A DNA stretch of 64,000 bases from Macrocystis pyrifera. Lineage: Eukaryota > Sar > Phaeophyceae > Laminariales > Laminariaceae. Made by a program: the position numbers and the translations under genes. The notes under the pieces were generated by a model. The model saw only the letters and a program-made list of their open reading frames with translations, was not told the DNA's origin and searched no databases. The DNA is taken from assembly GCA_031763025.1 (NCBI GenBank), contig JASSKH010000007.1, forward strand, positions 5,313,930 to 5,377,929, in the 5' to 3' direction. This document shows, piece after piece, positions 1 to 50,905 of this stretch. Each line of letters begins with the position of its first letter. The first letter of the stretch is position 1.

Positions 1-60
1 TGCCGCTGCTGCTGCTGCTGCTGCTGCTGCCGCTGCTGCTGCCGCTGCTGCCGCTGCTGT
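1..60. repeat. CTG/CCG trinucleotide tract
   Basis: An almost pure run of CTG with scattered CCG units opens the window. It lies upstream of the first visible exon of the nucleotidase gene, so it is either intronic or the edge of an upstream exon. Neither can be shown. Confidence 0.9.
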
Positions 61-670
61 GCGTGGGCGTGTCTTGCCAGGGGTCGCCTCTCGCGAACCG
101 TGTTAAACTATTATGTGTGCCTATCCGTCTCAAAATTCAAGGGCTGTTTCGATAAAATATAAGTGTACCATCGGTGCTTGTATCGTGGGACACCGTGGTC
201 CGGTTGTGGTTGCGGCAGAAGCAGCGTTTTTTTTTTTTCCCCCCATCCCCCCCCCCCCTCCCTGAGCGCGCATATTTCGTTGTTACCTGGTGCTGGACGG
301 GGGGTAGCGTATAGGGACTACAGTAGGCTGGTAGAGAGAGGCATGGCGGGATTTTCTTTCCATAAACAAGGGCTCCCGAAAAACGTTTTCCGTCCTCCGT
401 CCTCCTCTCTCACACCCGTGCGCGCTGGTTCGTCTTTTGACGCCTGACGGAACAAAATAGGATGGGCAGGACAGGACTCGTTCCTCTTTTGACGGGAGAG
501 GGAAATGTTAAAATATCGAGATGGCAGGACTCGGTCCCTCTTTGACGCGAGAGGTCGAAAATAGGATGAGACCACAGGCAGAAGGCCCGTCCGCTTCTCT
601 TGACGCGCGAGAGGGAAAACATAGGATAACAGGGACTCGAACAATAAAATAGGGTCATAGCAGGCTGCAG

Positions 671-705
<35 letters not shown>

Positions 706-1306
706 TATCAATGTAGTGATGGCGTAATCCTCGTTTTCTGCTTCTTCTCTCCCGATGGCACTATTACGGGGGACCAAAGTAAGTAGGACCAAATATTTTC
801 GGTAAAAATACGGAAATATATAGTTTTTTGTGTACACCGTAGGTCCTATTTACCAAGCCCTCCCGTAATAACTGTAAGAAAAAAAAATCAATGGGTTAAG
901 GGGTGCCGGTAAAAAAAATAAAATAAAGACAACCACCTGTCGATTTTCGAGACGCAGATAGGGTGGGGGTGTACTAAAACCAGGTGACAAATACTTGGGA
1001 AGAAACGAAGCGTTTCGTCAATCCGTCCAGGAATCCCCCACCCCACCGGCTTGTTTTACATTTTCGACCTTTTCAGGAGGCTTGTTTTACATTTTCGACC
1101 TTTTCAGGAGGCTTGTTGTACATTTTCGATCTTTTCAGGAGCAGTGTGGTGTCGTTCTGTCTGTTTTTGTTGTGCGGCTACCAACCTGTCCTCCCGTGTG
1201 CAAAAATCGCGTTTCGTTTTTTCTGCTCTCCCGTGTGTCGGCCTCACTGACTCGGAAATACATAATACGTCGGGTTTTTTTTTCCACGTGCACGTGCGCC
1301 AAGCAG
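61..1306. other. Intron or upstream sequence of the nucleotidase gene
   Basis: I see no exon here. It holds about four degenerate ~55-bp tandem units (432-640), each opening with TTTGACG, an (AT)n run (673-701), one R1 MITE, and three copies of a 31-bp unit containing ACATTTTCGACCTTTTCAGG (1048-1141). The N-terminal half of the nucleotidase, including its DPIDGT-type metal motif, is not in the window, so this is probably the 3' part of a long intron. Confidence 0.5.
762..870 (+). mobile_element. R1 MITE (palindromic, TA duplication)
   Basis: Reference description of R1. The terminal inverted repeats open with TTACGGGGGACCA and continue about 30 bp, to TAGGACC. The element is 105-112 bp, with an AT-rich core containing AAATATATAGGTTTTTGTG. 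It is flanked by TA on both sides, as expected for Tc1/mariner-type insertion. No coding capacity. This copy has a mismatched right arm. Confidence 0.85.
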
Positions 1307-4300
1307 GGGGGAATATACCTTCGCCTGCCGCGGTGGGGATACGTGGAGAACATTTGGGACCACGTCGCGGGGGCGGTCGTCATTCGGGTGAGAGGGGGTG
1401 TACTCGATAGGAGAGATGTACTCGATCTCATGCATGGCCGTAGTCGTATGACCATAGACCCTCGCATCCCTACAATGCCGGGACGGAGCATGTCGGGTTT
1501 TCACCGACCAGGCAGACATTGCTTGCACCAAGCGCGAAGCGCCGTGAGGTGTCCGGCGAGTCGCATGAAGGGTGAGCTGCATCCTACTAAGAACCGCTTG
1601 TGAGGCGGACTTGCATATGGATGACAGCTTCAATGAGTTAGTTTAATTTCCGGTGTGGACACTTCCAGAGACAGCAATGGGAGTACTATGTAACTGCCTC
1701 TTGGGTGCCGTACCTTGAACACTACGCGATACGATCAATTCCCTTGTGCAGAGTAAAGGTTCTTTACTCCGCACAAATGATCTAACTCGACGACCAGCTG
1801 TGGGCGACCGCCAAAAAAAAAAAAAAAAACGGGTGAGAGGGGGTGGAGATATAGCAAAACCCAACCCCGGAGGCATTTTTTCTGTCCCCTTTAGAAAATG
1901 CACCCAACGGTATTTTGGAAACAAATTTCGTGCTTGAAATTGGTGCAGACCTCGCTGGGGGTGGTGTGGGGTCGGAGGTGGAACGGAAAATAATCCGTGT
2001 TTTTTTTTGCCCTTGAAGGGGTAATAAGAGCGCATATTTCTTCTGAGGCTTTACGCTTGAAGAGCTCTATGTGCCTCCACCCATAAAAAATAACAAACTA
2101 CTCCTTGTGTGTGTGCTTTTTGTTGTTGGATGAAAAAAGCTTTGAAAAAACAAAAATGCCCCGTACGTATCCAACCCAGGAAACCTGTCCCCGAATCGTC
2201 CAGTTTGTACATGCGGCTCTCCCCACGCGGCAGCATGGTTGAGCTGCTGTAGATCGCACAACTACTGCTGTAGGTCAGGAAATGATCTTGTCGTGAAAAA
2301 TGTCTATAGATCATGACGTGGGGGGGGGGGGTCGGTGAGCTGTTCGATCTGTGATACCGTCCGTTCTCACCTGAACCGTTCCTACTCTTTCTTATCCTGC
2401 GTTTACGACATATATTGCTTCCGAAGCTGAGCACTAGGACACATGCTTCCCCCCCCCCGCTCCCTCCCCTCCGTGTCGAAAAGGATGTGTGGCCAATGGT
2501 CAAATGACTGAGGCAAGCACCGTGTGTGTACGCCCCACAGTACTCCCGCCCTCCTCGACCCCCTCCCATATATAGGTTGGGTTGGCGTCTGTTGACGAGG
2601 ACACTGTAAAACATGCCGCTCACTTCGCGAGCTACAGCAGTAGACAGCCAGGGTACATATACACCATTTTCTTTTTGGCGGTGGTTGCAACTGGCGGTCG
2701 AGGTATAGATCATCTCGTGCGCGGGGTGGAGACCCTTTTACTCCGCACAATGGGAGTGATCGTATCACGCAAGGGTCGACGGTAAGGCACCCACGAGGCA
2801 GTTTACATAGAGTAGCCGTTGCTGTCCCCGAAAAGTGATCACACCGGGAAAAAAAAAAAAAAAACACAATAAATTGTTTCGACGCTGTCGTCCCGACGCA
2901 AGAAACTCCGCCTCGCCGGCAGTTCTTCAGTAGGATGCGGCTTACCCTTCATGCGACTCGCCGAATGCGTCACGGCGCTTGCTTCGCGCTTGGTGCTGGC
3001 GATGTCTGCCTGGTCGGTGAAAACCTCACGGGCTCCGTCCGGGCATGGTGGGGATGCGAAGGTCTACGGTCATATGGCTATGACCATGCACGATAAACGA
3101 GTGCACCCCCCCCCCCCCCCCCCCTCGCCTGTCCCCCTCCCCGACCCTCGCGTTGCCTCCTTTCGTGGTTTTCCAGGAAGCCGGGGGCAAGGTTACCGAC
3201 AGCAGGGGGGAGCCGCTTGACTTTTCGCTAGGCGCCAAGCTCCCGCGGGAGGTGAGTTATTACGGAGAATCCGTCGGCACCCCCAAGTTTTTGGAGACCA
3301 AATACTTGGAAGTTAGTGTGGGATGCTTTTTGCGGTAAAAACCTCGAACTTTTTTTTTTTTCTGGGCCTCTTCGCTCGACGATCCCCATGCTGTCAGGAA
3401 GTCACCCCAAACTGGCTTTTGAGGAGGTGTGTAGGCGTTTTTTTTTTTTTTTTTAACTCAGTTATGAGCAGTCTGTGACGAGGTGCTATCGAAAAATTGT
3501 ACGCACAACACGATGACGAGACATGTGTAGCGGTAGTTAGTTTGTCAGGCGAGGGGCTCTCTCACGTCAGCTCCTCGCCTGGTGTCGCGCATGTGGAGCG
3601 CAAGGTCGAGCCTTCTCAACTTCCGCACTGGCTTGGAGTGCCGCTCGCCAGGCTTCCGGCCGGCTAGCAGCTGATCGGAAAAGAAGGGACCCTCTGGGTC
3701 GGAACGAAGTGTCAGGCGGAGAGAGGACCCTGTCCAGCAATGGAGTTTCGGCGTCATCACTTGTCGGAGTATGGCCCATACACGGCTTATTTTCGTTGTC
3801 TCCCACCGCCAATTTATCAACAAGTCCTTGCCTTGCTTGCGTCGATACTACTGTATCAGAAACGATTCGAAGTAATGAACGGTGTGCGAAAGCAGTTGTC
3901 CCGAAAATTGCAGTTCATGTATATCTCTCGCTTGGGGAGACCCTCGTGTGCCAAGCAATCGCTGTGCAAGCGTTTAGGCGAGAGGCGTTTGCGGAGAAAA
4001 AAATGCCAAGAATGGTTTGCGTCCGTCCCGTCCGCCCCTCCTCTCGTTTTTGCTGTGTGGGCCTTCTTTGCTCCGCCAGGTGGTCGGCGTGGTGGCCACG
4101 AGCGGGAAGATTCATGCTGAGGTTCTCCGGGCGGTGCACAACCGCCAGCTCGAAGACTGGGCAAGGTGACCACCCAAGAGATGCCCCCCCCCCCCCCCCC
4201 CCCCCCCCTCCCCGACTACCGTCATGCATGACATGAGTACACCTACCCACCCACCCACCCACCCTTAATGGGACCCGCCCAACACCTCACGGAGCTTCAT

Positions 4301-4728
4301 GATTGTGCCAGCAATGTCTGCCTTCGGTCAGTGAAAACCCGACACTTTCTGTTCCGGTATTGTACGTAGGTGTGCGCCTGAGTCGGGAGAGAAAACACTA
4401 GACTCAGGTGCGTATATCCTCGGAGTGAACCATTCTTTGATGACGGTCAGAGACAGGCCCGATTAAGCCTTTGATTAATAGTACTGCGGTCACGTTTTGG
4501 GGACAAATCACTTGGAATCAGAGTGGTTTGTCCCCAATTTGGGACTCTGCAGTGCTGAAAGGGTTAAGGTGGAAGAAACGAACCGGGTTCGAACCGGTAC
4601 GCAAAAGCTACTCGAAATAAGTGTGGACAGGGGTTTCCTCTCGCTCTCCGGGGCGCAAAAAAAAAAAAAAAACACGTGGGGATGCGAGGACCTGTGGTCG
4701 AACGACTACGGCAATGCATGACATGGAG

Positions 4729-4780
<52 letters not shown>

Positions 4781-6501
4781 CATCTGCTCCGTCTCGAAAG
4801 GGATGCGTGGCTGATCAAGTGACTAAGGCAAGCAACAAACGAGTAACCCCCCCCCCCCCCCCCCCCCCCCCGCCCCCAAGAAATTCTACGAACACCAACA
4901 CTATGACTATTTTCTGTGTATCTCTCGGGTGCCCCCCCCCCCCCCCCCCCCCTACCCCCCATCAAAACGTGACCGCGGCAGGGTGGTAGCGGACGCTAAG
5001 GACGGCGACTGGGAGAGCGGGGACGCGGCGCCGCAGCTACCGGGAGTAGACTGGGCGTACTGGAACAACGGCCGCGAAGGTGTCGGGGAAGAGTGGTGGG
5101 CCAGGGCGGCCGAGCAGCGGCAGCCTCTGGTGATGCGGACGAGCGAGCAGTTCTACGGCACACTCGAACGGTGTGTGTCTCGTCTGTGTGTCGTCTGTGT
5201 ACGTGCGGGGTCGTGAGTGTGAGGGTGGATGTGGGCGTGGATGTTTCGCGTCTTGTGTCTGTGTGCACTTCACGTTGCATACGTACAACCGTTTGGGACC
5301 TCCCGAGATATGTACTCGTACGCGAGCGATGAAAAAACAGTCACCGCTTTTGGAGTTGTCGACCGATGACAACGGGGACACAAAAGGATGTTTCAAAGTT
5401 TTTTATGTTCGAAAAAACAGATTTTTGCTTTCTTTGTATTCAAAACATATGTTTTGCTTTCAAGAAACAGCTGAAGCTTTTCTCTCGTGTATGAATACCG
5501 TCGATCCCGGGAAAAACGAAAAAAAAAAAAACTTTTGTTTTTGTCCTTTTTTGTTCCACACGACTGGGTGCAGGCGGCGCAATTCATTGTTTTCTCGTTG
5601 TACGTTGTCAACACGCTGATTACTATTCAGCGTGCGACGATAGGCCTTCGATCTTGACATAATAGACTCAACCCACGGCCAACCCGCTTCTGAGGTGGGG
5701 TGGGGTGGAGTGGGGCGGGGTAAAGTGGGATGAGTCATGTCGGCTCGTGCCATTTAGACCCGCCCAGGGTACACGTCCGCTGCACCGCCCACCATGCGAG
5801 AGCACGCGAAAATCGTTGTCCACGCTGCACATGATACGCACGCACACCCATCCCTCGACACCCTCGTGCCGCGCTTTACCTCGTCGCCGCGTTTTCCCGC
5901 AGAGGCTGGGACAAGCTGGTCGCTGTCCTCTTCCACGGAAGCTGGACGCAAGAGTCACAACATGCGGTGAGCATCCTCGAATGCCTCGCCGGGCGGCAGC
6001 ACCCGCCGCCTCTTCAGGTTCTGCAGTCGGGTCAGCAGCAACAGCAGCAGCAGCAGCAAGAGGCTGAGAAGAAGCAGCAGCGCGAGCAAGAGCGGCAGCA
6101 AAAGCTGCACTCTTCGTCGCCTTTCTCAGACTTCGAGTGGCAGAAGTCGCAGCCGCCGCCGCCGCCATCGTCATCATCATCAGGCTCCCTCGAGCGTGGC
6201 AGCACCGCCACGGCGGAAGCTCCAAAGGCGGAGACGAAAACGTGCGTGGGGGGGGGGGGTGGCTGGAGACGTCGCCTCGGGCACCATCCCGGTACTCCTA
6301 GCGGAGGCAGACGTGATGAGTCTCATCGACGTCGCCGACAGACAGGCGATCGCGGGGCTCCCGTCCCTCCACCTGCACCTTGGAGGCAGAGAGATAGTAA
6401 GGTTTCCCGTAAACTCTGGCGAGAGCGCCGATTCTCTAGGCGCGAGGATCGACGAGGTGGTCAGCCGGGTGTGCGAGGCGAGGAGGCGGTATCAGCGGTA
6501 G
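1307..6501 (+). CDS. 3'(2'),5'-bisphosphate nucleotidase (SAL1/BPNT1-like) fused to a thioredoxin-like domain, 5'-partial
   Basis: Five exons seen: 1307-1387, 3177-3251, 4080-4165, 4982-5170 and 5903-6501, all with GT-AG borders and matching phases (0, 0, 2, 2). Exons 1-3 encode the C-terminal half of a lithium-sensitive inositol-phosphatase-fold enzyme: GGIYLRLP, then WDHVAG with the metal-binding Asp, EAGGKVTDSRGEPLDFS and a VVATSGKIHAEVLRAV helix. Known members remove the 3'-phosphate from PAP/PAPS in sulfur metabolism. Such proteins normally end at this helix. Here exons 4-5 read on into LVAVLFHGSW-TQES, matching thioredoxin's first strand and active site but with TQES for CXXC, then a Gln-rich insert, then AIAGLPSLHLHL with the cis-proline and GG turn, and a final helix. 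A 12-G run (6248-6259) is one base out of frame, so the last ~80 codons are read one frame over. The stop is TAG at 6499. The N-terminal exons lie upstream of the window. Family call for exons 1-3 is firm. The fusion is inferred from splice phase. Confidence 0.82.
1400..1829 (+). mobile_element. R5 element, near full length
   Basis: Reference description of R5. It opens next to a G-rich run, then GTACTCNNNNTCATGCATGG, a block around CCGTAGTCGTATGACCATAG, then GGGTTTTCACCGACCAGGC, GTGAGCTGCATCCTACTAAG and TTACTCCGCACAA, and ends in poly-A (1813-1829). Length about 440 bp, no ORF shared between copies. TGGCCGTAGTCG resembles a pol III A box. No convincing B box follows, so a SINE origin is only a guess. 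This copy has a short G head. Confidence 0.8.
2461..2535 (-). mobile_element. R5 B-type end
   Basis: Short fragment of the R5 B variant, which carries AAAGGGATGCGTGG and GACTAAGGCAAGCA in place of the A-type block. A poly-C run lies beside it. Confidence 0.6.
2668..3123 (-). mobile_element. R5 element, near full length
   Basis: Reverse copy. The G head is a C run at 3103-3123. The inner blocks run in order back to a T-rich stretch near 2668, the remnant A tail. An extra poly-A run (2850-2866) interrupts it. Confidence 0.75.
3252..4079 (+). other. Intron 2 of the nucleotidase gene
   Basis: 828 bp. Contains a T16 run near 3438. I see no recognisable transposon and no conserved coding sequence, although open frames cross the 3' half. 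Confidence 0.75.
4190..4371 (-). mobile_element. R5 fragments
   Basis: An A-type end (GACTACCGTCATGCATGACA) beside a C run, followed by a second fragment with the inner blocks CAGTGAAAACCCGACA and CAACACCTCACGG (4266-4371). Confidence 0.65.
4483..4567. mobile_element. R3 hairpin element
   Basis: Reference description of R3. About 90 bp, almost perfectly self-complementary: AACCCTTTTAGGACTGCAGT, CCCGTTTTGGGGACAAAC, then the reverse order back to CTAAAAGGGTT. The centre carries AATT. This copy is worn at its left edge. Confidence 0.75.
4670..4777 (-). mobile_element. R5 A-type end with a ~47-base C run
   Basis: ACTACGGCAATGCATGACAT runs straight into an uninterrupted C run at about 4731-4777. 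Confidence 0.75.
4793..4870 (-). mobile_element. R5 B-type end with a C run
   Basis: GACTAAGGCAAGCAACAAAC followed by GAGTAA and a C run of about 22 bases. A further C run at 4932-4952 precedes the exon-4 acceptor. Confidence 0.7.
5171..5902 (+). other. Intron 4 of the nucleotidase gene
   Basis: 732 bp with GTGTGT donor and CCGCAG acceptor. The split codon CG|A gives Arg. Opens with GT-rich sequence. No transposon recognised. Confidence 0.75.
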
Positions 6502-7500
6502 TTTCATTTGGGGTGAAGTTATCGTCGGAGCCGCGTTGCTTGCCGCTTTTGCCGCCGGCCCGCTATCCCGCCCGCCCGCCCGCTGTGGCCCTTTTTTGCT
6601 GTTTTTGCATATGCATTTTTTTGCTTTTGGGTTCGCACTGCCATTTTTTTTTTTTTGTTGTTGTTGTTGTGCTTTGTGTTTCGTGTGTGTTCGTGACCGA
6701 TAAATACGATTACCCAAAAGTTACGGAAGATTGTTAGGAGTTACGAGTGGAGTGATATACCCGGGTGGCGTTGGTGAGGAGGGTAGCCGTGGGGAGTGGT
6801 CGCGGACTACGGTATAGCGGTGGCTGCGGCTGCGGCGGCTGCGGCGGCGGCTGCGGCGGCGGCGGCGGTGGCGGTGACGGTGACGGTGCTGCTGCGTGTT
6901 GTCGCCACTGCGTGTGGAGAAACTATTGCCCGTGAAGGCAAGAAGAGGGGCGGGGCGGGGGGGGGGGGGGGGACGAGGGGTTGCTCTGATTTTGCGCCCG
7001 TGCATTGCGTCCTCCTTGCGTTTGATGTCCCCCGTCGTAATCGCCGATGTGGGTCATGAAACGTCAGGTCTCCCAGCCGACGTTTTGAGAGATTGGCGGC
7101 GGAATCTGTCGTCGTCGCCTTCGATTTTGCTTTTTGTTTGCGGCTCCCTGGTATTTGAAGGGGGTGCCCAAAACTGCGCCGGTGGGGCACGTACAACCGG
7201 ATGGCTCCTTTCCACGAGGAATTTGGGCGTCCGAACGACCAAGAGCGACAACGCCTGGGCGGTTCTATAAAAACCCATTGGAGATTCAGAGGGAAAATAT
7301 GTCGATTGAAAATGATGATTATAGCATGGGCCCGGGCTACCGGGGGGGGGGGGGGGGGGGAGGGGGGATACGGGGGGGGCGCGGGGGGGGTTCCGAACCC
7401 CAACGTTAGGAGCTGCACCACACGCGCACGTAGCATACATGGGGTGATTACCTGGATTGCTGCACGCTCTTTTTTCTAATCGCTTTTGGTAGGATGGCAT
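6502..7500 (+). other. 3' flank of the nucleotidase gene; trinucleotide and G-rich sequence
   Basis: Contains a TTG run (6655-6670), a GCGGCT/GCN-rich stretch at about 6820-6890 that would be poly-Ala if translated, and G runs at about 6958-6971 and 7341-7360. No clear polyadenylation signal or exon. Confidence 0.5.
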
Positions 7501-9000
7501 TCGTCGTTTGCCTTTTTGCTTTTTGGTCAATATTGTGGGACTCCCAAAAAGTAATTTATATTTTGAGAGAGGGCTAGAGAGAAGACACACCTGGTACAAA
7601 GGAAGGAAGCAAAAAAAGCGAATCTGCGACGATTTATTTTTCTGTAACGTACGCCTGTTTTTTTTTAGAAGCGCGCGGCGCGGGTTTTTTTTTTTTTTTC
7701 TCCGCGGGGGGGTGACTCTCCCGTGTTTTTTTCAGATTCTGGGGCACGTTTTGATTGGGTGGTTGGCGCAAGGAGAGGCGACAAAAATATGTTTTTTTTT
7801 CTCCGAGCGGCCTGTAATAGAATTATGACTAGAGGAGTGTGACGTGACGCTAGAGAGAGGAGGAGTAAATGGGTCGACCCGGCCGGAGCTTGCCCCGGGG
7901 TAAGCGTCAGGGCAGCGCGGCACGGTGGCGGGAAAGGGGGGGGGGGGTTGGGGGGGTTCCCTGAGACTCGAAGGACGCATCGTGACGCGACTCGGAACGA
8001 CGTTGGGGCGAACTTTGGCGAGGGGGGGGGAGGGGGGGGGGGGGAGTGCACTCGATATCATGCATGGCCGTAGTCGTTTGACCAAAGACGGAGCACGTCG
8101 GGCTTTCACCAACCAGGCAGACATTGGACGGGGGGGGGTTCGGTGACTCGAGTGGCTCGAAGGATGTGGCGTGAGCGACTCGGGACGACGTGGGCTTTAG
8201 GAGAGCATGCGGCAGATTCCGCCTGCCGTATGATACTCTCTTGGTATTGGTGGCGTTCACTCATCCACAATGGCACTGACGTTTAGCCGTAGAGGAGTAT
8301 ATTATTAAATTTTAGAGCGAGTTACGCAAGCAGCACTCGAGCAGGCCGAAAGAGACACCCGCCAGCGTTTTTTTTTTTTCGCGGTGTGGGTTGCTGCGCC
8401 GACTCGATTGTATAACCAATTACCACCATATCAAACGTGTATCGGCTCATCTGTATACATCTCTCACCCGTGAACAAGGAGAAAACTGGGACGTTGAAAC
8501 GAACAGGCTTTTTTTAGGGCTCTTTTCCCCCAACAAGATAACAACCAAAGGGGGGGAGGAGACCGGTCACAGCGCGTCGAAGTAAAGGAGGCCCGGCACA
8601 AAATCTGGCATTTTTCCAAGATTCAGGTAACTGACTATTAATACCACTCTTGCCGAAGTCTATCTAAACCCCGTTTAGACTCCGATGCTCTGATGTGTGA
8701 ACATGAAACGGTAGGGCTATGAGTGACTATAGTTGAGTTTTCGGCTGGCCTGCTATCAATCTTAAGCTTCATTTTTACTTAAAAAAATGAAGTAGAATAC
8801 AGAAACACCCCAACCATGGTATGGCCTTGGGCCCTTTGGCCATCACGACGATGGGTTTTGATGCGCAATGATTTGCAGTGTAGATCTTTCAGGTCTCTCT
8901 CTCTCTCCCTCTCTGAGCAAGTGGTCTCACGGGGAAATGTGCACACTCGGTAGCAAAGAAGCCTTACATAACCAAGGAAACCCGAGTAGTCGGATAGTTG
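7501..9000. other. Intergenic, mostly without recognisable features
   Basis: T runs, one R5 copy and a CT run (about 8893-8912). Two ~65-bp direct repeats (7960-8025 and 8137-8206) flank the R5 copy. I see no gene. Confidence 0.5.
8020..8130 (+). mobile_element. R5 A-type fragment
   Basis: G run, then ATCATGCATGGCCGTAGTCG and a shortened inner part ending at CAACCAGGCAGACATTGG. The segment holding CTCGCATCCCTACAATGCCG is missing. Confidence 0.7.
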
Positions 9001-31700: not shown

Positions 31701-34138
31701 TTAAATTTCGTAGACCTATATATGAGACGGTGCTCACTGGAGCGAGACGACCGGACTATGTACACTCCGTATCATGGCTTGAGTGAAACAAAGGCATTTC
31801 GATCAGTATCCTATCAATAGAAGAAACATCGCTCTATAGAATGCACGTGGTGTACCTCAACAATACGCAACGTAGTAAAATTGAAAGTAGAGCTTCATGA
31901 ACGACAATACTTACGTATGGTAGGTCCAGCGATGGACTTACCAAGCTGGAGCTAGAGCTATGCTAGCGCCCCGTGACCCCCCGACTTCAACACCAGCAGC
32001 AGAGAGCTCTGCAGCAGTACTCATGTAGGGCAGTGTGCTCGCGCGGTATCGAGTGCAAATCCGCATGACGTGCGCCAATCGCGTCCAGTCAAGCTTTGCC
32101 AACTTTCCGGCAGCCAAAGCCGCCCCCTACGCTTCACGGACAGACGTTTACATTCCAGTATGCACCGATCGCTTTTTTGCTTCGTGTACGTGCAGATTTT
32201 CGATGCTTCCACCGGCATTTCAGGAGCACGCATGTGCTTCGCGGTGCTCGACAGACCTTTTTCCTCGTAGCTGCAGGGTTGACTGCGTCATCGAAGTTGT
32301 AGCGTGTTTTGAACGGTAAAATGGGGTAGCTCTCTCGCTGTTACGAGGGCACCCAAAGCAGTAGTTTTCGTAAAGAGATGTGGCAGGTAAACGATGGGGG
32401 GGGAAATGTTTGTTAACGATCGGGAGATATTTTTGTTTTGGGTCCATCATGGGCTCCGCTCACTATGCCCCCCCCCCCCCCCCCGAAAATCGGAGCTCGC
32501 GTCGTTAGTTTTTTTTTTTTTTTTTCTTGGATGCTCGTATATTTTCTGTCATATATTTGTAACATTTCTTCTTTTGGATACTTACGTATACCTTGTTATG
32601 CATTTGTTTGTTTTTTTCGCTTGGATACTTACGTATACGCCTGTTACACAAAATATATTATGTACGTAGTGATAAAAACTGTCGCTAACTGCAAACTGCT
32701 GTGTGCGCTGGTTGGAAAGTAACAAATATTAAAAAAAAAAATGCAAAATTGGAGATTTTTTCGATCGTACATTTTCGGTCGGACCTTGCGTACGGACTAC
32801 GGACCTCCACGGCTTCAGATGATAACTTCCCACCACTCTGGCGGGAAATGTGAAGACCGCTTCGTATTCTTATGGATGTGTGAACGATGCTTATAAGGTC
32901 CGCCCACAGTAGTATGTACGAATGATAACATACCATAGTGATGATGGGGTTGTTTCCTACCAGTACTTTCTAAAAAATAAAATAAAAATTGAAAAAAAAG
33001 AAAATAACGGCCCACCCTTTTTCCCCATCATCCTTTGTCGCTTCGTTCGCTAACGCAGTCATTGCTGCCTACCTCATGAAGCACAAGGCCATGCCTTACC
33101 TCCAGGCCGTAGACGAGGTGCGCAGGGCACAGCCCACGGTCCACGTCAACCCGGGGTTCGAGGCCCAGCTGGCACTTTACCGAGACATGGGCTGCAGGCT
33201 TCCGGGCACGCCGCACGAGGAGGGCGATGAACCACGAGCCGGCGTTAACTCCGAGGCGACTTCAACACCGATGGATGATCGTGACCCGACGAGTTTTCGG
33301 GCGGACGCGACCTACCGCTGGTTTCTGTTCGCGTGCGGCGTCACAAACGGCGACCAGGGCTACCTCCAACGGCTACCCTTATTGAACACCGATGGCGAAG
33401 GTTCTTCTCGTGCCGGTAGCGACAGCCGCGGCCCGGCTCTCGTGCGAGAAGGTTGTGGTGGTGGTGGTGGTGGTGGTGCGGCGGCGGCGGCGGCAACGTT
33501 CGGGTCTAGGGCAGCCACGTACCGGTGCAGGGCGTGCCGCGCCCCGCTGTTCTCGGAGGCGAATGTGGTTGATCACCGGCACCCAGTCGTCCAGGCCGCG
33601 AGCGACAGCGTCTATGCTTCCTTTAGCAGGCACGGGGGCGACGGGAGCTCTTGGTTGGCGGCAGAGAGACGCCGCCGCCGCCGCCGCCGGCTCCACCTCT
33701 TCCTTCTCCTCGTCGACCTTTGGCGCGAGAGCACCCGCGTGGAAAACGCCTCGCGGGGGGAAAGGCGCAGCAGTGCCCTCGCGAAGAGTTCGTAGTAGGG
33801 GCGGTGACGAAATTGGCGGCAGGGTTTCCACCGTAGGCCTCGCCTCTCCTCCGGGGGGGTCGGGTTGCTGCACCTCTGTATTCACCGAAGTTTTGGGATG
33901 GGTCGAAATATCGGAGGTGTGCCGAGGGGTTTCTTCCGTGGGTCCTCGCGGGAAGTTCGGCAAGATTTTGTGCCCCGGGAGGAAAGGACGCAGAGGGGGG
34001 GCGGGGGCGGAGGCAGGGACGGAGGCGTTGTGCCGAAGCAAGCTCGGCTCGTGGAGCTTGGACGGCGCCGCCTGCAGCTGCGGCAGGATGGTCAAGCCCG
34101 CGTTGCAGTTCACCCTCAGTCGAATCGAGCGCGCTTGA
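22176..34138 (+). CDS. DUSP12: DUSP12/YVH1 dual-specificity phosphatase with C-terminal zinc domain
   Basis: Exon 1 is 22176-22632; exon 2 is 33059-34138. The start AAAGGATGGC was chosen because it precedes the first conserved block (IYCVLKETPARLFLGTQKAA). The general-acid region is VPVLDLPSENLLARLDEC. The P-loop is N-C143-VFAQS-R149-S: the CX5R pair is intact, but the usual His before the Cys is Asn. Splicing GCAG|TC gives SRSAAVIAAYLM, the exact family length, then EVRRAQPTVHVNPGFEAQLA. The zinc domain follows: YRCRACRAPLF, DHRH, CTSVFTEVLGWVE, LCP...CRSKLGSW and CSCGRMVKPALQF, near the C-terminus as in human DUSP12. YVH1 proteins act in 60S ribosome maturation, and the zinc domain is the essential part in yeast. 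Oddities: the reading frame moves by one between 33585 and 33795 (a G6 run at 33755-33760 is one candidate, a tiny intron another), and about 18 extra residues separate the Cys pair that is CPKC in animals. Confidence 0.88.
22803..22878. mobile_element. R2 hairpin element, diverged
   Basis: TGTCCGGAAATGTAATGACC faces CAGTCCTTATATATCCGGAC. Confidence 0.65.
23150..23440 (-). mobile_element. R4 element with an expanded GATCTATCTGTA array
   Basis: Reverse R4. At about 23345-23430 an 18-bp unit (GATGATCTATCTGTA core) is repeated five times, more than in other copies. Confidence 0.65.
23549..23641. mobile_element. R3 hairpin element, best copy
   Basis: AACCCTTTTAGGACCGCAGT with GGGGACTGCAGTCCTAAAGG, and GGAGACAAACTACTTGGAAT opposite AGAGTGGTTTGTCCCC. 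Arms are nearly unmutated. Confidence 0.85.
23788..24713. mobile_element. R7 dispersed repeat, copy 2
   Basis: Same orientation and block order as copy 1, about 220 bp shorter. Lies in the DUSP12-like intron. Confidence 0.7.
24838..25168. mobile_element. Palindromic element with GCACGTACGTGCAA arms
   Basis: Left arm GGAAATTGCACGTACGTGCA and its complement at the right, about 330 bp apart. Its middle (about 24965-25105) shares CCTCCGGCGGCTC, TTTCTGCACC and CAGGGTGCCAAAT with the centre of the fold-back element at 53.2-54.1 kb. Confidence 0.55.
25169..25744. other. Intronic, nothing recognised
   Basis: Mixed-composition sequence without conserved exons or identified repeats. Confidence 0.4.
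25745..25851 (-). mobile_element. R1 MITE
   Basis: Both arms and TA flank readable. Core CACACAAAGCTATGC is diverged. Confidence 0.85.
25985..26077. mobile_element. R3 hairpin element
   Basis: GGGACTGCAGTAGTGCCGTT left, AACGGAACTAGCAGTATTAA right. Confidence 0.7.
26078..26988. other. Intronic, mostly unassigned
   Basis: A (GA)n run at 26316-26340. Otherwise no repeat or exon recognised. Confidence 0.4.
26989..27080. mobile_element. R3 hairpin element
   Basis: CCTTCTAGGACTGCAGTTCC and GGACTGGAGTGCTAAAGGGT arms. Confidence 0.7.
27123..28160. mobile_element. Non-autonomous DNA transposon with ~175-bp terminal inverted repeats
   Basis: Left arm 27123-27297 and right arm 27989-28160 are near-identical inverted copies: CATTGTGG...GCAAATTTTATACGTCACGG on the left and its complement on the right, extending to CGATCGACAAAACC. 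Between them a ~240-bp unit is tandemly duplicated (27270-27500 and 27510-27725), each opening with CATCGATCGACAAA. No transposase. Long arms suggest a Mutator-like family. I could not see a target duplication. Confidence 0.75.
28739..28787. repeat. ~49-base G homopolymer
   Basis: Uninterrupted G run. Followed at 28795-28860 by a fragment of the R6 SINE tail (GACCACG, GAGGGTAAAGCCTCCTAC). Confidence 0.85.
28861..29611. other. Intronic, mostly unassigned
   Basis: A possible R2 half (29057-29085, AACGGTCCTTACATTTTCG) and a very worn R1-like segment at 29517-29611. Nothing else identified. Confidence 0.4.
29612..29719 (+). mobile_element. R1 MITE
   Basis: Arms GGGGGCCGTAGTTAATAGGG and ACTATGGCCCCCCGTAATA. 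Confidence 0.85.
29855..30187 (+). mobile_element. R6 tRNA-derived SINE
   Basis: Opens GGCGTCCCGGTGGCTTGG. TGGCTTGGTAGG (29865-29876) fits the pol III A box and GGTTCAAATCTC (29909-29920) the B box, at tRNA-like spacing. A body of about 240 bp follows, with GACCACGGCTTGTCCAGAAG and GTAAAACCTCCTACGAGTGG, and an A-rich tail (30168-30187). A second copy is at 47612-47931. Confidence 0.85.
30188..32828. other. 3' part of the DUSP12-like intron, unassigned
   Basis: T runs, TACCAGGTA-type palindromes, an isolated R1 half-arm (31372-31401) and a CACCTGGTG-type minirepeat (31485-31545). A splice-like acceptor precedes a short open frame ending at 32270. It matches no family I know. Confidence 0.4.
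32829..32905. mobile_element. R2 hairpin element, diverged
   Basis: CCACCACTCTGGCGGGAAAT, AAGACCGCTT; right arm TAAGGTCCGCCC. Confidence 0.55.
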
Positions 34139-42562: not shown

Positions 42563-43605
42563 CTACGAACTATACAAGCGCGTGACAACGATAAGCCCTT
42601 GGCTGCCGATGGAAATTGTCATGCCCGCATGACACGTCGCGCCGCGGCTCGTCATGCGCAGATGGACAAGGATTCCGGACGGCGCTTCTACCGTCTCTCC
42701 GTCTGCCACTTCTCCAACGCCCGGCCCGTCGCCGTCGTTGATGCTCCTCCCGAGCCTCCCTTCCAGCACGCGGAGCACGGTGTGCCTCAAGACGTGATGG
42801 TCTCGGGGGTCGACGATGGTCGCGAGCGACTGCCCCACGATGTCCTCCGGGGCTACTTGCAGCCGCTGGCAGAAATTTTCGCAAAGGAACCTGTGCGCGC
42901 GCGCGCAGGGGGGGGGGGGGGGGGGGAGGGGGGAGGAGGGGGGGGGGGGCGTACTCATTATCATGCATGGCCGTAGTCATTTGACCATTGACCACGCATC
43001 CCTTTCGAGACGGAGCACCGTTCCTACTCCTAATAGAGACACCTCCAACGATTGGGCGCTCATTACGTTGTTTCCATATATTACATAGAAACTTTTTGCT
43101 AAGCTTATCCCCCTCCTGTCTGGCCACCTGTGGCCACCATCTATCTCCTAGGATAGCGATCGTTTTGTCGCTGCAATTTAGTGTATCAAACTCCTCCATG
43201 TCACATTCGTCTATTTCCCTCATCTCCTCTTTTAACACATCCCGTTCCTCCTTGTACATTTCACATTCTCCTACTATGTGAGTTCTACTCTCGGGGGGAG
43301 GGGGGGGGGACGGGGGGTACTCGATGTCGTATGTGGTGCATGGTCGTATTACGGGGGACCATAGTAAGTAGGACCAAATATTATAGGGAAATATATAGGT
43401 TTTTGTGTCTACCGTCGGTCCTATTTACTATGGCCCCCCGTAACAGTCATATGACCATAGACCCTCGCATCCCTTGTTCGAGAGGGAGATGCGCAACCTT
43501 CCTACTTCTAGGAGAGACACCTCCAACATTTGGGCGCTCAAAATCAGCTTTTTTCCATATAATATTACATGCAAACGTTTCGGGGGGGGGGGGGGGGGGG
43601 GGTGT

Positions 43606-48500: not shown

Positions 48501-50582
48501 TCCATTTTTTTTCCAGATATTTTTTTTTCATGAAGAACTAAGAAGGCACGTCAGCTGTGAGTTCAACCGATCGGCAGATCGGTCGATACTCAACTTTGCA
48601 AGCTGCGTGAACCGTTCGCTTGTTTTCCATTATTTCCCTCGCGATTGGCTACTGGCCACAGCAGTGACTCCTCTGGATGCCACCAGGGTCGACGAGACGA
48701 TAACACTTACTAATGTAACACAACAGCTGGCTCGATTTCCAATCGTGATTTCAGCCAGTACAGAGTACCACTTCGCGCACTGTGAAACAGATATTATTAG
48801 AGAAAAAAGTCCGGGAAAAAAAAACATGATGTACATCTGCCATCAATATATTAATAGTACGAGCGAGTACCCGTCATTTTGTTGTTTTTGTCGTTGTTGT
48901 ACTATTAATAGCGAGTACATGTACTTACTCGTGCGACAGATACGTATTACGTAAAGATGTGTGTGATCATAGATAAATACCCGATAGATGGATACGTGCT
49001 GGATATACGAGTACCTCGATTTTGTTACAAATACCTTTTACAATCTGTGAGCTCGGATCTTCAGGTTGGTAGGTTGTTCAGGCAGTTTGGTTCCTGTTGG
49101 TTGGGATCAAGGCACCGGCGAAGACCCAACCCAACCCCTGCACCCCTGACCCCAAACCGCAGAAAAAACGGGCCAAAACGGGCCATAAATGCGGCTGCGC
49201 CGCGTTTGCATTTTGAACCACGAAATTTCTCAATTGCGGACAACGACTCCGAAGTGCAGACCCCGTTACTCAACCGCTCAATTTTCAGGTCAAAAACACC
49301 CCTAAAGATCCAAGCTCACACATTGTAAAACCTACTCTTTTTTTTTCCAATCGTGCGCGTGGGTGTGTCGTGGTTCGAACAGACTTTTCACCTGAAGGGC
49401 GCGTGCTCCTCCATGCGGTGTAGGGAGAAGAGGTCCGGGCCGTGCTCCACGATGATCTTGCAAAGCTGTAGGATCTCCACCTCCTGCGGAGCATGATCGA
49501 TCGCCGGTCCCGCGGGTGTGCAGCAGCATGGGCGACGGATACTTTCGAGATTTAAAAGGAAAAAAAAATGTCAGAAAATTATGTGATAACTTTATGAAGA
49601 AAGAAAGAGGCCAGAAGCACGTAAAGTACCCAATGGTGATACACACCTTGGTATGTTCGAGCAGCAGATCACAAGGATCACACAGAATTATTGTTGTACA
49701 TCATGGTTGTGCTGTGACTGGAGATTGCGTAGGTAATGAGAAAAGTGTTGAGAGAACTGTCGTGGGGGCGTGGCGAAACATGGCGGATGAAGCCAGGTGG
49801 CAACACACTCATCACCTGCAGTGTTTCCCCCTTGTCTCGTATCGTACGAGCTCGATCGAGGTGTACACAACACTGCTGCGTGATGTTCGTCTGGGTGTAT
49901 TGTATGTTGGCAGTAGTTCGTTCGAACTCCTCGCTGCTATCATTACTTGCTTGCGTGTTGCACAAGAAGGGATTACAAACGTACGTGGTACTATACAAAC
50001 GTACGTGGTACTATACTATAAAACGAACAGCAATCGGTACGAAATCCACAAGCTACGAGTACAACTCACACAACTGCTGCTGTTTGTTGTTGTAGCAGAT
50101 GAGTTATGATGTGACATGGTTGGCCTATCTATAGCAGACAGTAGTAGCTCTACCCACGGGCACCACAAGCATACGCGCACAGTATCACCTGATGGATGTC
50201 GACGAGTACCCTCACAGCGATTCCACAAGTCCCCAACTCCAAAGCAAACACCGACAGGACAGCAAACACACGGTCGTTGTCATACCATGACGTAAACGTC
50301 AACGCAAAGAACAACAAGAGCAAACGAGACCCCCACCTCTCGCAATAGCTGCTCTTTTTTTTTCTTTCTCTCGCGCGTTTCCTTGCAGTGGATGCGGTTG
50401 GCCTCGCGAAGGGCATTGCGGCGCTCGCTGTCCGGCACGGGTCGAGCTTGGGCCGGCGATTTACTGCCGCCGCTGTAGTCCTCCTCGTTGTCATCCCCTT
50501 CTAGGACTGCTTGCACGCCCAGCAGCTGCTGCTGCTGCAATTGTCGTTGCTGTTGTTCGTGTTGATTTTGAAGTCCATCCAT
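42563..50582 (-). CDS. bZIP-PAS transcription factor
   Basis: Minus-strand exons 50582-50337, 49483-49392 and 42890-42563 join in phase into 221 codons plus TAG. Exon 1 starts MDGLQNQHEQQQ, has a Gln tract and an acidic stretch, then RRNALREANRIHCKETRERK. This is a bZIP basic region with the N-x7-R pair at correct spacing but His-Cys where the two alanines usually stand. The zipper is short: EQLLREEVEILQLCKIIVEH. The linker reads PDLFSLHRMEEHAPFRFLCE and leads into a PAS fold: NFCQRLQVAPEDIVGQSLAT, IVDPRDHHVL, a ~25-residue insert, and strands ending SIGSQGLIVVTRLYSS. There is no NCRFLQ flavin motif, so it is not an aureochrome-type LOV sensor. Likely a nuclear DNA-binding dimer. The ligand or partner of the PAS is unknown. 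A 5' exon upstream of 50582 is possible. Confidence 0.85.
42905..43040 (+). mobile_element. R5 B-type end with interrupted G head
   Basis: G runs about 42908-42950, then ATCATGCATGGCCGTAGTCA joined to the B-type GACCATTGACCACGCATCCC: a hybrid of the two variants. Confidence 0.7.
43296..43560 (+). mobile_element. R5 A-type copy split by an R1 MITE
   Basis: GTGCATGGTCGTA (to 43346) resumes at GTCATATGACCATAGACCCT (43447). Without the MITE the two halves give the normal R5 block. Confidence 0.85.
43347..43446 (+). mobile_element. R1 MITE inserted in R5
   Basis: 100 bp, slightly short in the core. Flanked by TA on the left and CA on the right, consistent with a mutated TA duplication. Confidence 0.85.
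43579..43692 (+). mobile_element. R5 A-type end with a ~58-base G-rich head
   Basis: G run broken by T and a single TGT, then ATTGTCATGCATGGCCGTAG. Another G run follows at once. Confidence 0.75.
43768..43858. mobile_element. R3 hairpin element
   Basis: CTTTTAGGGCTGCAGTTCCG and AACGGGACTGACCGCAGTCC. Confidence 0.75.
43859..44766. other. Intronic, unassigned
   Basis: G runs near 44440. No exon or known repeat. Confidence 0.4.
44767..44877 (-). mobile_element. R1 MITE
   Basis: GGGGGTCCATAGTTAACAGG and GTTAACTATGGACCCCTGTA: both arms carry the T-type bases, as in the nested inner copy at 11.3 kb. Confidence 0.85.
44878..45450. other. Intronic, unassigned
   Basis: A GCGC/GAGA stretch (45080-45115). 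Otherwise nothing recognised. Confidence 0.4.
45451..45542. repeat. Three C runs joined by CTAAAAC / CTAACCAAATTTTACTTA
   Basis: Runs of about 15, 20 and 32 C separated by short AT-rich joints. Confidence 0.85.
45580..45815 (-). mobile_element. R5 B-type end followed by an A-type fragment
   Basis: CTCTATTAGGAGTAGGAACG GTGCTC then GACTAAGGCAAGCAGCAAAT (B, to 45680); CCTGGTCGGTGAAAACCCGA to GACTACGGCCATGCACGATA (A, 45690-45815). Confidence 0.8.
45957..46193 (-). repeat. tRNA-like direct repeats
   Basis: An ~85-bp segment occurs at 45957-46045 and 46108-46193, each with TAGCCCAACGGACTAAGACC on the minus strand (A-box like). Between them is GTGAGTTCGAATCGACC (B-box like). A tRNA-derived SINE pair or a tRNA pseudogene duplication. 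The cloverleaf does not close well. Confidence 0.5.
46194..46733. other. Intronic, unassigned
   Basis: Open on both strands in parts but without motifs. Confidence 0.4.
46734..46842 (-). mobile_element. R1 MITE
   Basis: TTTACGGAGGACCATAGTAA and ACTATGGTCCTCCGTAATA: both arms share the GGAGG variant. Confidence 0.85.
46843..47611. other. Intronic, unassigned
   Basis: A CAG run (47355-47378). Nothing else recognised. Confidence 0.4.
47612..47931 (-). mobile_element. R6 tRNA-derived SINE
   Basis: Reverse copy. A box TGGCTTGGTAGG at 47920-47909, B box GAGTTCGAGTCTC at 47877-47865, T run (A tail) at 47612-47619. Its B box is closer to the tRNA consensus than that of the 29.9-kb copy. Confidence 0.85.
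48022..48102. mobile_element. R3 hairpin element
   Basis: TTCCGTTTCGGGGACAAACC and CCAAAACGGCGGGACTGTAG. Confidence 0.7.
48103..49391. other. Intronic, mostly unassigned
   Basis: At 48545-48625 a ~75-bp stretch (CACGTCAGCTGTGAGTTCAA, ACTTTGCAAGCTGCGTGA) recurs at about 54370-54430 and 55605-55670. The rest is unrecognised. Confidence 0.4.
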
Positions 50583-50905
50583 TCCGCCCGTCTGTCGATA
50601 CCTGCTCCGATGGGTCTCACCCTACAGCGGTAGGTGTCGCAGGTCCCGGCTGTTTGTTGTCCTTGTTGATGATGTGTTCCCAGTTTGTTTCCAACGCGCC
50701 CGCCCCACCAAGACAGAAAAAGAGTTTGATCGACAAAACACCGGCGGTCCGGCAGAGGCGGGCGACGAAAAATTTTCGTTCGATTCCCGTTCCTGTGTCG
50801 TACGATGATCGGCGCCACACACACCTGCACCCCGCCCCAAGATGACGAAGTTCGGGGACGTGGTGTGTGTCTCTGGTCGATTGTGCAGCAGCAGCAGCAG
50901 GTGCA

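Follow-up and report, generated by a model that had tools for sequence, protein, structure and literature searches.

The analysed DNA of the kelp Macrocystis pyrifera contains what we consider, with fair likelihood, to be a single gene in which a HAL2/SAL1-type 3'(2'),5'-bisphosphate nucleotidase is continued in frame by a thioredoxin-like domain in which neither active-site cysteine remains. The window, which is the whole stretch of 64,000 nucleotides that was analysed, corresponds to C221:5313930-5377929, and the genome searched was the M. pyrifera assembly of 537,376,219 bases in 223 contigs, for which the published report gives 537 Mb, a table entry of 223 contigs and PacBio reads (PMC10498591).

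Five exons with GT..AG borders and mutually fitting phases were read on the forward strand of the window. Exon 1 (1304-1387, with the start perhaps at 1307) encodes QGGIYLRLPRWGYVENIWDHVAGAVVIR with the WDHxAG metal site, exon 2 (3177-3251) encodes EAGGKVTDSRGEPLDFSLGAKLPRE, and exon 3 (4080-4165), the final nucleotidase exon, encodes VVGVVATSGKIHAEVLRAVHNRQLEDWA(R) and ends in phase 2; all three were assigned by translation and by matches to SAL1 (8f9y) and TIGR01330. Exon 4 (4982-5170) encodes a linker and then the start of the thioredoxin-like domain (EEWW, TSEQFYGTLE), as judged by translation, phmmer and a coding GC pattern that begins at the acceptor. Exon 5 (5903-6501), which was read from translation, phmmer, and profile and hhalign comparisons, encodes the remainder of this domain and a Q/E/S/P-rich insert and closes with a TAG stop. 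The lengths of introns 2, 3 and 4 taken from these borders are 828, 816 and 732 bp. Pieces of a dispersed repeat (GGGTTTTCACCGACCAGGCAGACATTGC and its neighbours) were recognised by eye at about 1440-1610, 2930-3090, 4250-4345 and 8040-8140; pieces of this type lie in introns of the gene and beyond it, and also in the upstream stretch L010 (C221:5304930-5313929).

The initial annotation had described a SAL1-type phosphatase whose exons end where such enzymes normally stop. Exons 1-3 match SAL1 8f9y with E 5.8e-18 (phmmer) and the HAL2 family TIGR01330 with E 4.4e-21 (profile search), and the end of exon 3 was placed at the end of SAL1 because the 8f9y match reaches residue 343 of 352 and is followed by seven residues. 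The assignment and its terminus therefore held, but the window contains just the 3' part of the nucleotidase. The 5' exons were located at C221:5306884-5310691, about 3.2-7 kb upstream and beyond 2,500 N. In L010 these are an exon for the N-terminal helix at 1955-2096, an exon carrying AEE and DPIDGTKGF that ends at 3036, and an exon carrying GILGCPNLP that ends at 5762, while the N run occupies 6501-9000 and reaches the start of the window. About 98 positions of the TIGR01330 profile (182-279) are absent from the readable nucleotidase exons, and these would presumably sit in the N run. The joined parts without this middle region score 211.9 bits against TIGR01330, compared with 77 bits for the next family; the cut-off is 267 bits, with about 98 positions missing from the query. 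An open exon at L010 979-1271 (C221:5305908-5306200; MSARHGDR...LSLSRPEDS) is in phase with the first nucleotidase exon via a GTGAGA donor; no Pfam family matched when the two were stitched together, and it is possibly an extra N-terminal region or a targeting sequence.

The genome-wide TIGR01330 search, in which seven candidates were scored, gave two matches, both within this gene, which is the sole HAL2/SAL1-type PAP(S) nucleotidase found in the kelp genome. Among the other Inositol_P loci compared, which were those outside C203 and C223 (L026-L031), four gave weak matches to the HAL2 query (L026, L027, L029 and L030; E 1.9e-5 to 4e-4), and the remaining two gave none. The readable motifs AEE and DPIDGT, in the L010 exon ending at 3036, and WDHxAG, in window exon 1, are those that we take to be the metal-binding motifs of HAL2/SAL1 nucleotidases. 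Since these motifs are intact, phosphatase activity of the kelp protein on PAP and PAPS is to be expected from its sequence.

For the tail, two versions of the peptide were used. A version with a surplus Arg where exons 4 and 5 join served in part of the early Pfam scans, in the paralogue search of the kelp's own genome and in the viral-contig search, and the corrected exon 4-5 peptide served in phmmer, hhalign, the whole-peptide Pfam scan, the prokaryotic-genome search and the comparison of APR, generic and TRXL2 profiles. The best phmmer match of the spliced peptide in the PDB was TRXL2-1 (E 0.0015), followed by yeast thioredoxins and TXNDC5 (E 0.04-0.98); the thioredoxin family accounted for 11 of the 17 rows at E<=1, and the other six fall outside it. 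A half-domain construct of the tail was matched best by an LRR kinase (E 0.0031), followed by thioredoxins. Pfam Thioredoxin (PF00085) stayed under its cut-off for the tail (E 0.18 and 0.32), with the unrelated DUF2126 ranked higher, and it was not matched in the scan of the whole exon 4-5 peptide.

Profile comparisons placed the tail above chance. A profile built from six thioredoxins, including a TRXL2/ACHT pair that was put in after an earlier search had pointed to it, matched the tail with E 3.3e-7 for the whole peptide and 3.8e-7 without the insert (E for a search space of one), and the best of 5,000 insert-less shuffles reached 3.2e-4. A profile of three generic thioredoxins gave E 1.6e-7, and the best of 3,000 shuffles gave 5.5e-5. 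The thioredoxin assignment of the C-terminal part in the initial annotation was borne out by hhalign, which with the insert removed returned Probab 90.5 and E 1.3e-6 over 110 columns, with none of 300 shuffles scoring as high and with GLPSL aligned at the cis-Pro. With the insert kept, the values were Probab 28.7 and E 6e-4, and the score of 28.7 fell short of the 30.6 reached by the top insert-less shuffle. For exon 5 by itself, AlphaFold gave a poor model (mean pLDDT 51.8) with a strand-strand-helix end at about 154-197.

The active-site reading of the earlier annotation, TQES for CxxC with an intact cis-Pro, agrees with the translation and the alignment. The W-CGPC of thioredoxin reads W-TQES in the tail, with the Trp at 5943-5945 and TQES at 5946-5957, so that there is no CxxC and both cysteines are lost; the cis-Pro is kept in GLPSL (codon 6361-6363). 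These alignments support the assignment of exons 4 and 5 to a putative thioredoxin-like domain without redox cysteines, encoded directly behind a SAL1-type nucleotidase.

Three matches to the tail at E<=1 were obtained in the kelp genome (10 candidates scored), all of them to the gene itself, and no close relative was confirmed in viral contigs or in bacterial or archaeal genomes by short exact peptide patterns. At least 430 stretches were confirmed as prokaryotic relatives of the nucleotidase; around the best 80 of these (bacterial), with a flank of up to 3 kb per locus, the thioredoxin profile matched none of 4,077 ORFs of at least 60 aa at E<=1e-3 in a scan run without a positive control. 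The initial annotation knew of no description of this architecture, and among the open papers listed, judged by title or the start of the abstract, we likewise found no description of a nucleotidase combined with a thioredoxin fold. At another kelp locus, L025, neighbouring matches to both halves of plant ACHT1 with a CRSC active site were observed at 3523-3702 and 5943-6095 (near C136:892022 and 894421); it looks like a TRXL2/ACHT-type gene, with no nucleotidase adjoining in 8.5 kb. Elsewhere in the window, an open frame at 32986-33792 on the forward strand resembles the end part of a dual-specificity phosphatase; its Pfam DSPc match, at E 9.1e-5, was under the cut-off. On the reverse strand, inspection by eye suggested a piece resembling PAS and a basic region like that of bZIP proteins at 42566-42976 and 50283-50621, perhaps from one bZIP-PAS gene; neither piece matched Pfam at E<=0.1.

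Phase and composition at the exon 3-4 junction make it probable that the nucleotidase and the tail form one fused protein. Exon 4 continues exon 3 in phase, and exon 5 continues exon 4. From its acceptor on, exon 4 is coding-like, with GC of 0.78/0.50/0.78 by codon position over the first 36 codons, like the other exons. Outside the exons, such a pattern occurred in 16 of 1,678 stop-free 36-codon stretches in 1-6900 and in 336 of 19,626 beyond, where the stretches overlap and the larger set contains real genes. Intron 3 also resembles introns 2 and 4 in size.

The principal alternative, which we regard as unlikely, is that two adjacent genes are present, one a nucleotidase that stops at the TGA at 4167-4169 and the other a redox-dead thioredoxin-like gene that contains exons 4-5 and has an overlooked first exon. 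If exon 3 is left unspliced, this TGA falls precisely at the natural end of a SAL1-type enzyme, which speaks for two genes, though a phase-2 intron that starts with GTGA invariably gives an in-frame TGA. An in-frame Met within exon 4 (QPLVMRTSEQ) could likewise serve a separate gene, but it is the only Met of the exon, and both the coding composition and the TRXL2-1-like stretch begin upstream of it. The L025 sequence, with its CRSC site and no match to the HAL2 query in 8.5 kb, also favours the two-gene reading as a kelp thioredoxin-like sequence standing by itself. Against it, no convincing first exon for a separate tail gene was found among 16 listed candidates with an ATG after 4100 and a phase-2 donor. 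For three of these the ATG lies inside exon 3. A +5 G occurs in three candidate donors (GTCAGT, GTAGGT, GTCTGC), which belong to two ATGs, and none of these donors is near the consensus; the search covered coding first exons, and a further 53 candidates with an ATG in 3260-4100 were counted without being listed. The gap of just 816 bp is also small against the genome average of one gene per about 21 kb (25,919 genes in 537 Mb; PMC10498591).

The proposed donor of intron 3 (4166-4171, AAG/GTGACC, from reading of the sequence) is weak, which also favours two genes. Its score of 0.3 is at or above that of 1 of 28 kelp TCP-1 donors; these 28 were selected with an iterative model out of 30 of 54 matches. 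Of the GTs in the window, 12.5% reach at least this score. The +5 G, present in the six other donors of the gene, is missing. The donor of exon 4, which is spanned by the thioredoxin match, scores lower still (-1.1). In favour of the join, a kelp TCP-1 gene (L127, GAG/GTGACC) has the same hexamer, GTGACC, at the inferred edge of an exon, where the match after the edge starts one profile position before the preceding match ends, and GTGAC donors were inferred at another TCP-1 locus (L116, CAG/GTGACA) and at a thioredoxin locus (L019, AAG/GTGACT).

The claim that exons 4-5 continue in phase into a thioredoxin fold stands as to the phases and the above-chance profile and hhalign matches, but it needs qualification within exon 5. 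This exon is not open in a single frame, and the C-terminal half of the thioredoxin-like domain requires a one-base shift in the stretch of 12 consecutive G at 6248-6259, from which one base has to be left out, as read from the translation. The fold is also interrupted between helix 2 and strand 3 by 81 residues of mainly low complexity, rich in Q, E, S and P (6031-6245, approximate limits from the translation). A second alternative, which we consider improbable, is therefore that exons 4-5 are a decayed thioredoxin copy, a pseudogene piece, and that the working protein is an ordinary SAL1; the shift, the TQES and the low-complexity insert would all fit such decay. However, apart from the G run, the parts flanking the insert are open in the expected frame with a coding GC pattern (0.74/0.43/0.74 before the insert and 0.69/0.47/0.77 after it, like the nucleotidase exons), and the cis-Pro is kept. 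We attribute the shift in the G run, tentatively, to a read error or to allelic variation, and homopolymer errors are common in long-read assemblies. Within the insert the pattern is weaker (0.63/0.50/0.74). We also considered, by eye, that a short intron might replace the shift; this is not favoured, because the GC values of the insert, read in the upstream frame, follow the coding order.

That the tail descends from plant-type APS reductase, through the thioredoxin domain of that enzyme, is very improbable; such an origin would link two sulfate-pathway enzymes and is compatible with a fused gene. The by-eye likeness to APR1/APR2 sequences at the active site and the last strand is outweighed by a two-sequence profile of plant APRs that ranked three shuffles above the tail (hhalign Probab 0.13), whereas in the same comparison the generic thioredoxin profile gave E 1.6e-7 and the TRXL2/ACHT profile 7.1e-6.

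The kelp protein shares with APS reductase the layout of a sulfate-pathway enzyme with a C-terminal thioredoxin fold. The plant-type enzyme is a reductase whose C-terminal thioredoxin-like domain keeps its CxxC and acts as an electron donor, whereas the kelp tail has no CxxC, and no sequence kinship was found in the profile test. The TRXL2/ACHT chloroplast proteins share with the tail the WW, the EQF helix and the DKLVxVxF strand, and TRXL2-1 is its best single PDB match, although the tail scores higher with the generic profile than with the TRXL2/ACHT pair. They differ from the tail in their redox centre, which reads TQES in the kelp, and the tail is apparently fused to an enzyme. When light gives way to darkness, chloroplast enzymes are reported to be oxidised and inactivated by ACHT and TRXL2, and Cys-to-Ser variants do not rescue the mutant (PMC11910432). 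The cysteines needed for that rescue are missing from the kelp tail. PDI b domains, phosducin-like proteins and ERp29 are redox-dead thioredoxin folds that serve binding rather than electron transfer, as is proposed for the fold of the kelp tail; we know of none joined to a PAP nucleotidase.

The nucleotidase part belongs to the same sequence family as Arabidopsis SAL1 and yeast Hal2 and has the same metal-site motifs where it is readable. That plant SAL1 is redox-regulated, as the initial annotation had noted, is in print: SAL1 is under redox control, with Cys119 forming the dimer and Cys167 and Cys190 an internal disulfide (PMC9426629). Compared with SAL1/HAL2, the kelp protein has a C-terminal extra of about 260 residues, comprising the linker, the thioredoxin-like domain and the insert. 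In an alignment to SAL1, Cys119 presumably reads Leu in the kelp, Cys167 is presumably kept and the Cys190 region falls in the gap. With Leu at the Cys119 position, and with TQES unable to carry electrons, the tail is unlikely to transfer electrons directly.

In the fused protein that we favour, exons 1-3 and 4-5 would be spliced into one mRNA, and the enzyme part would hydrolyse PAP and PAPS. The C-terminal fold, having lost electron transfer, would keep its cis-Pro groove as a docking surface; since the groove is kept, the tail may suit partner binding, and a redox protein, a sulfation enzyme or another subunit could be recruited or held there. Alternatively, the tail might control access to the phosphatase, or its stability. 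A docking or regulatory role is what we infer from these sequence features. It is also conceivable, though doubtful, that intron 3 acts as a switch: left unspliced, it would give a free nucleotidase of SAL1 length through the TGA of the donor, and spliced, a nucleotidase with a redox-dead thioredoxin dock. If so, splicing at a weak donor would set, in an alga with heavy sulfate traffic, the share of PAP phosphatase that is tethered to a redox or sulfation partner.

Brown algae produce much sulfated polysaccharide, and each sulfate transfer leaves PAP, a toxic by-product of sulfate chemistry that is cleared by the HAL2/SAL1 family. In plants, redox inactivation of SAL1 makes PAP a stress signal (PMC9426629). 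If the sole HAL2/SAL1-type enzyme found in the kelp carries a thioredoxin-shaped module of its own, this module would couple PAP clearance to a partner by a separate route, and would offer a concrete test case for the role of redox-dead thioredoxin domains. If transcripts confirm the join, the protein would be an unusual one, possibly linking sulfur metabolism to a partner protein.
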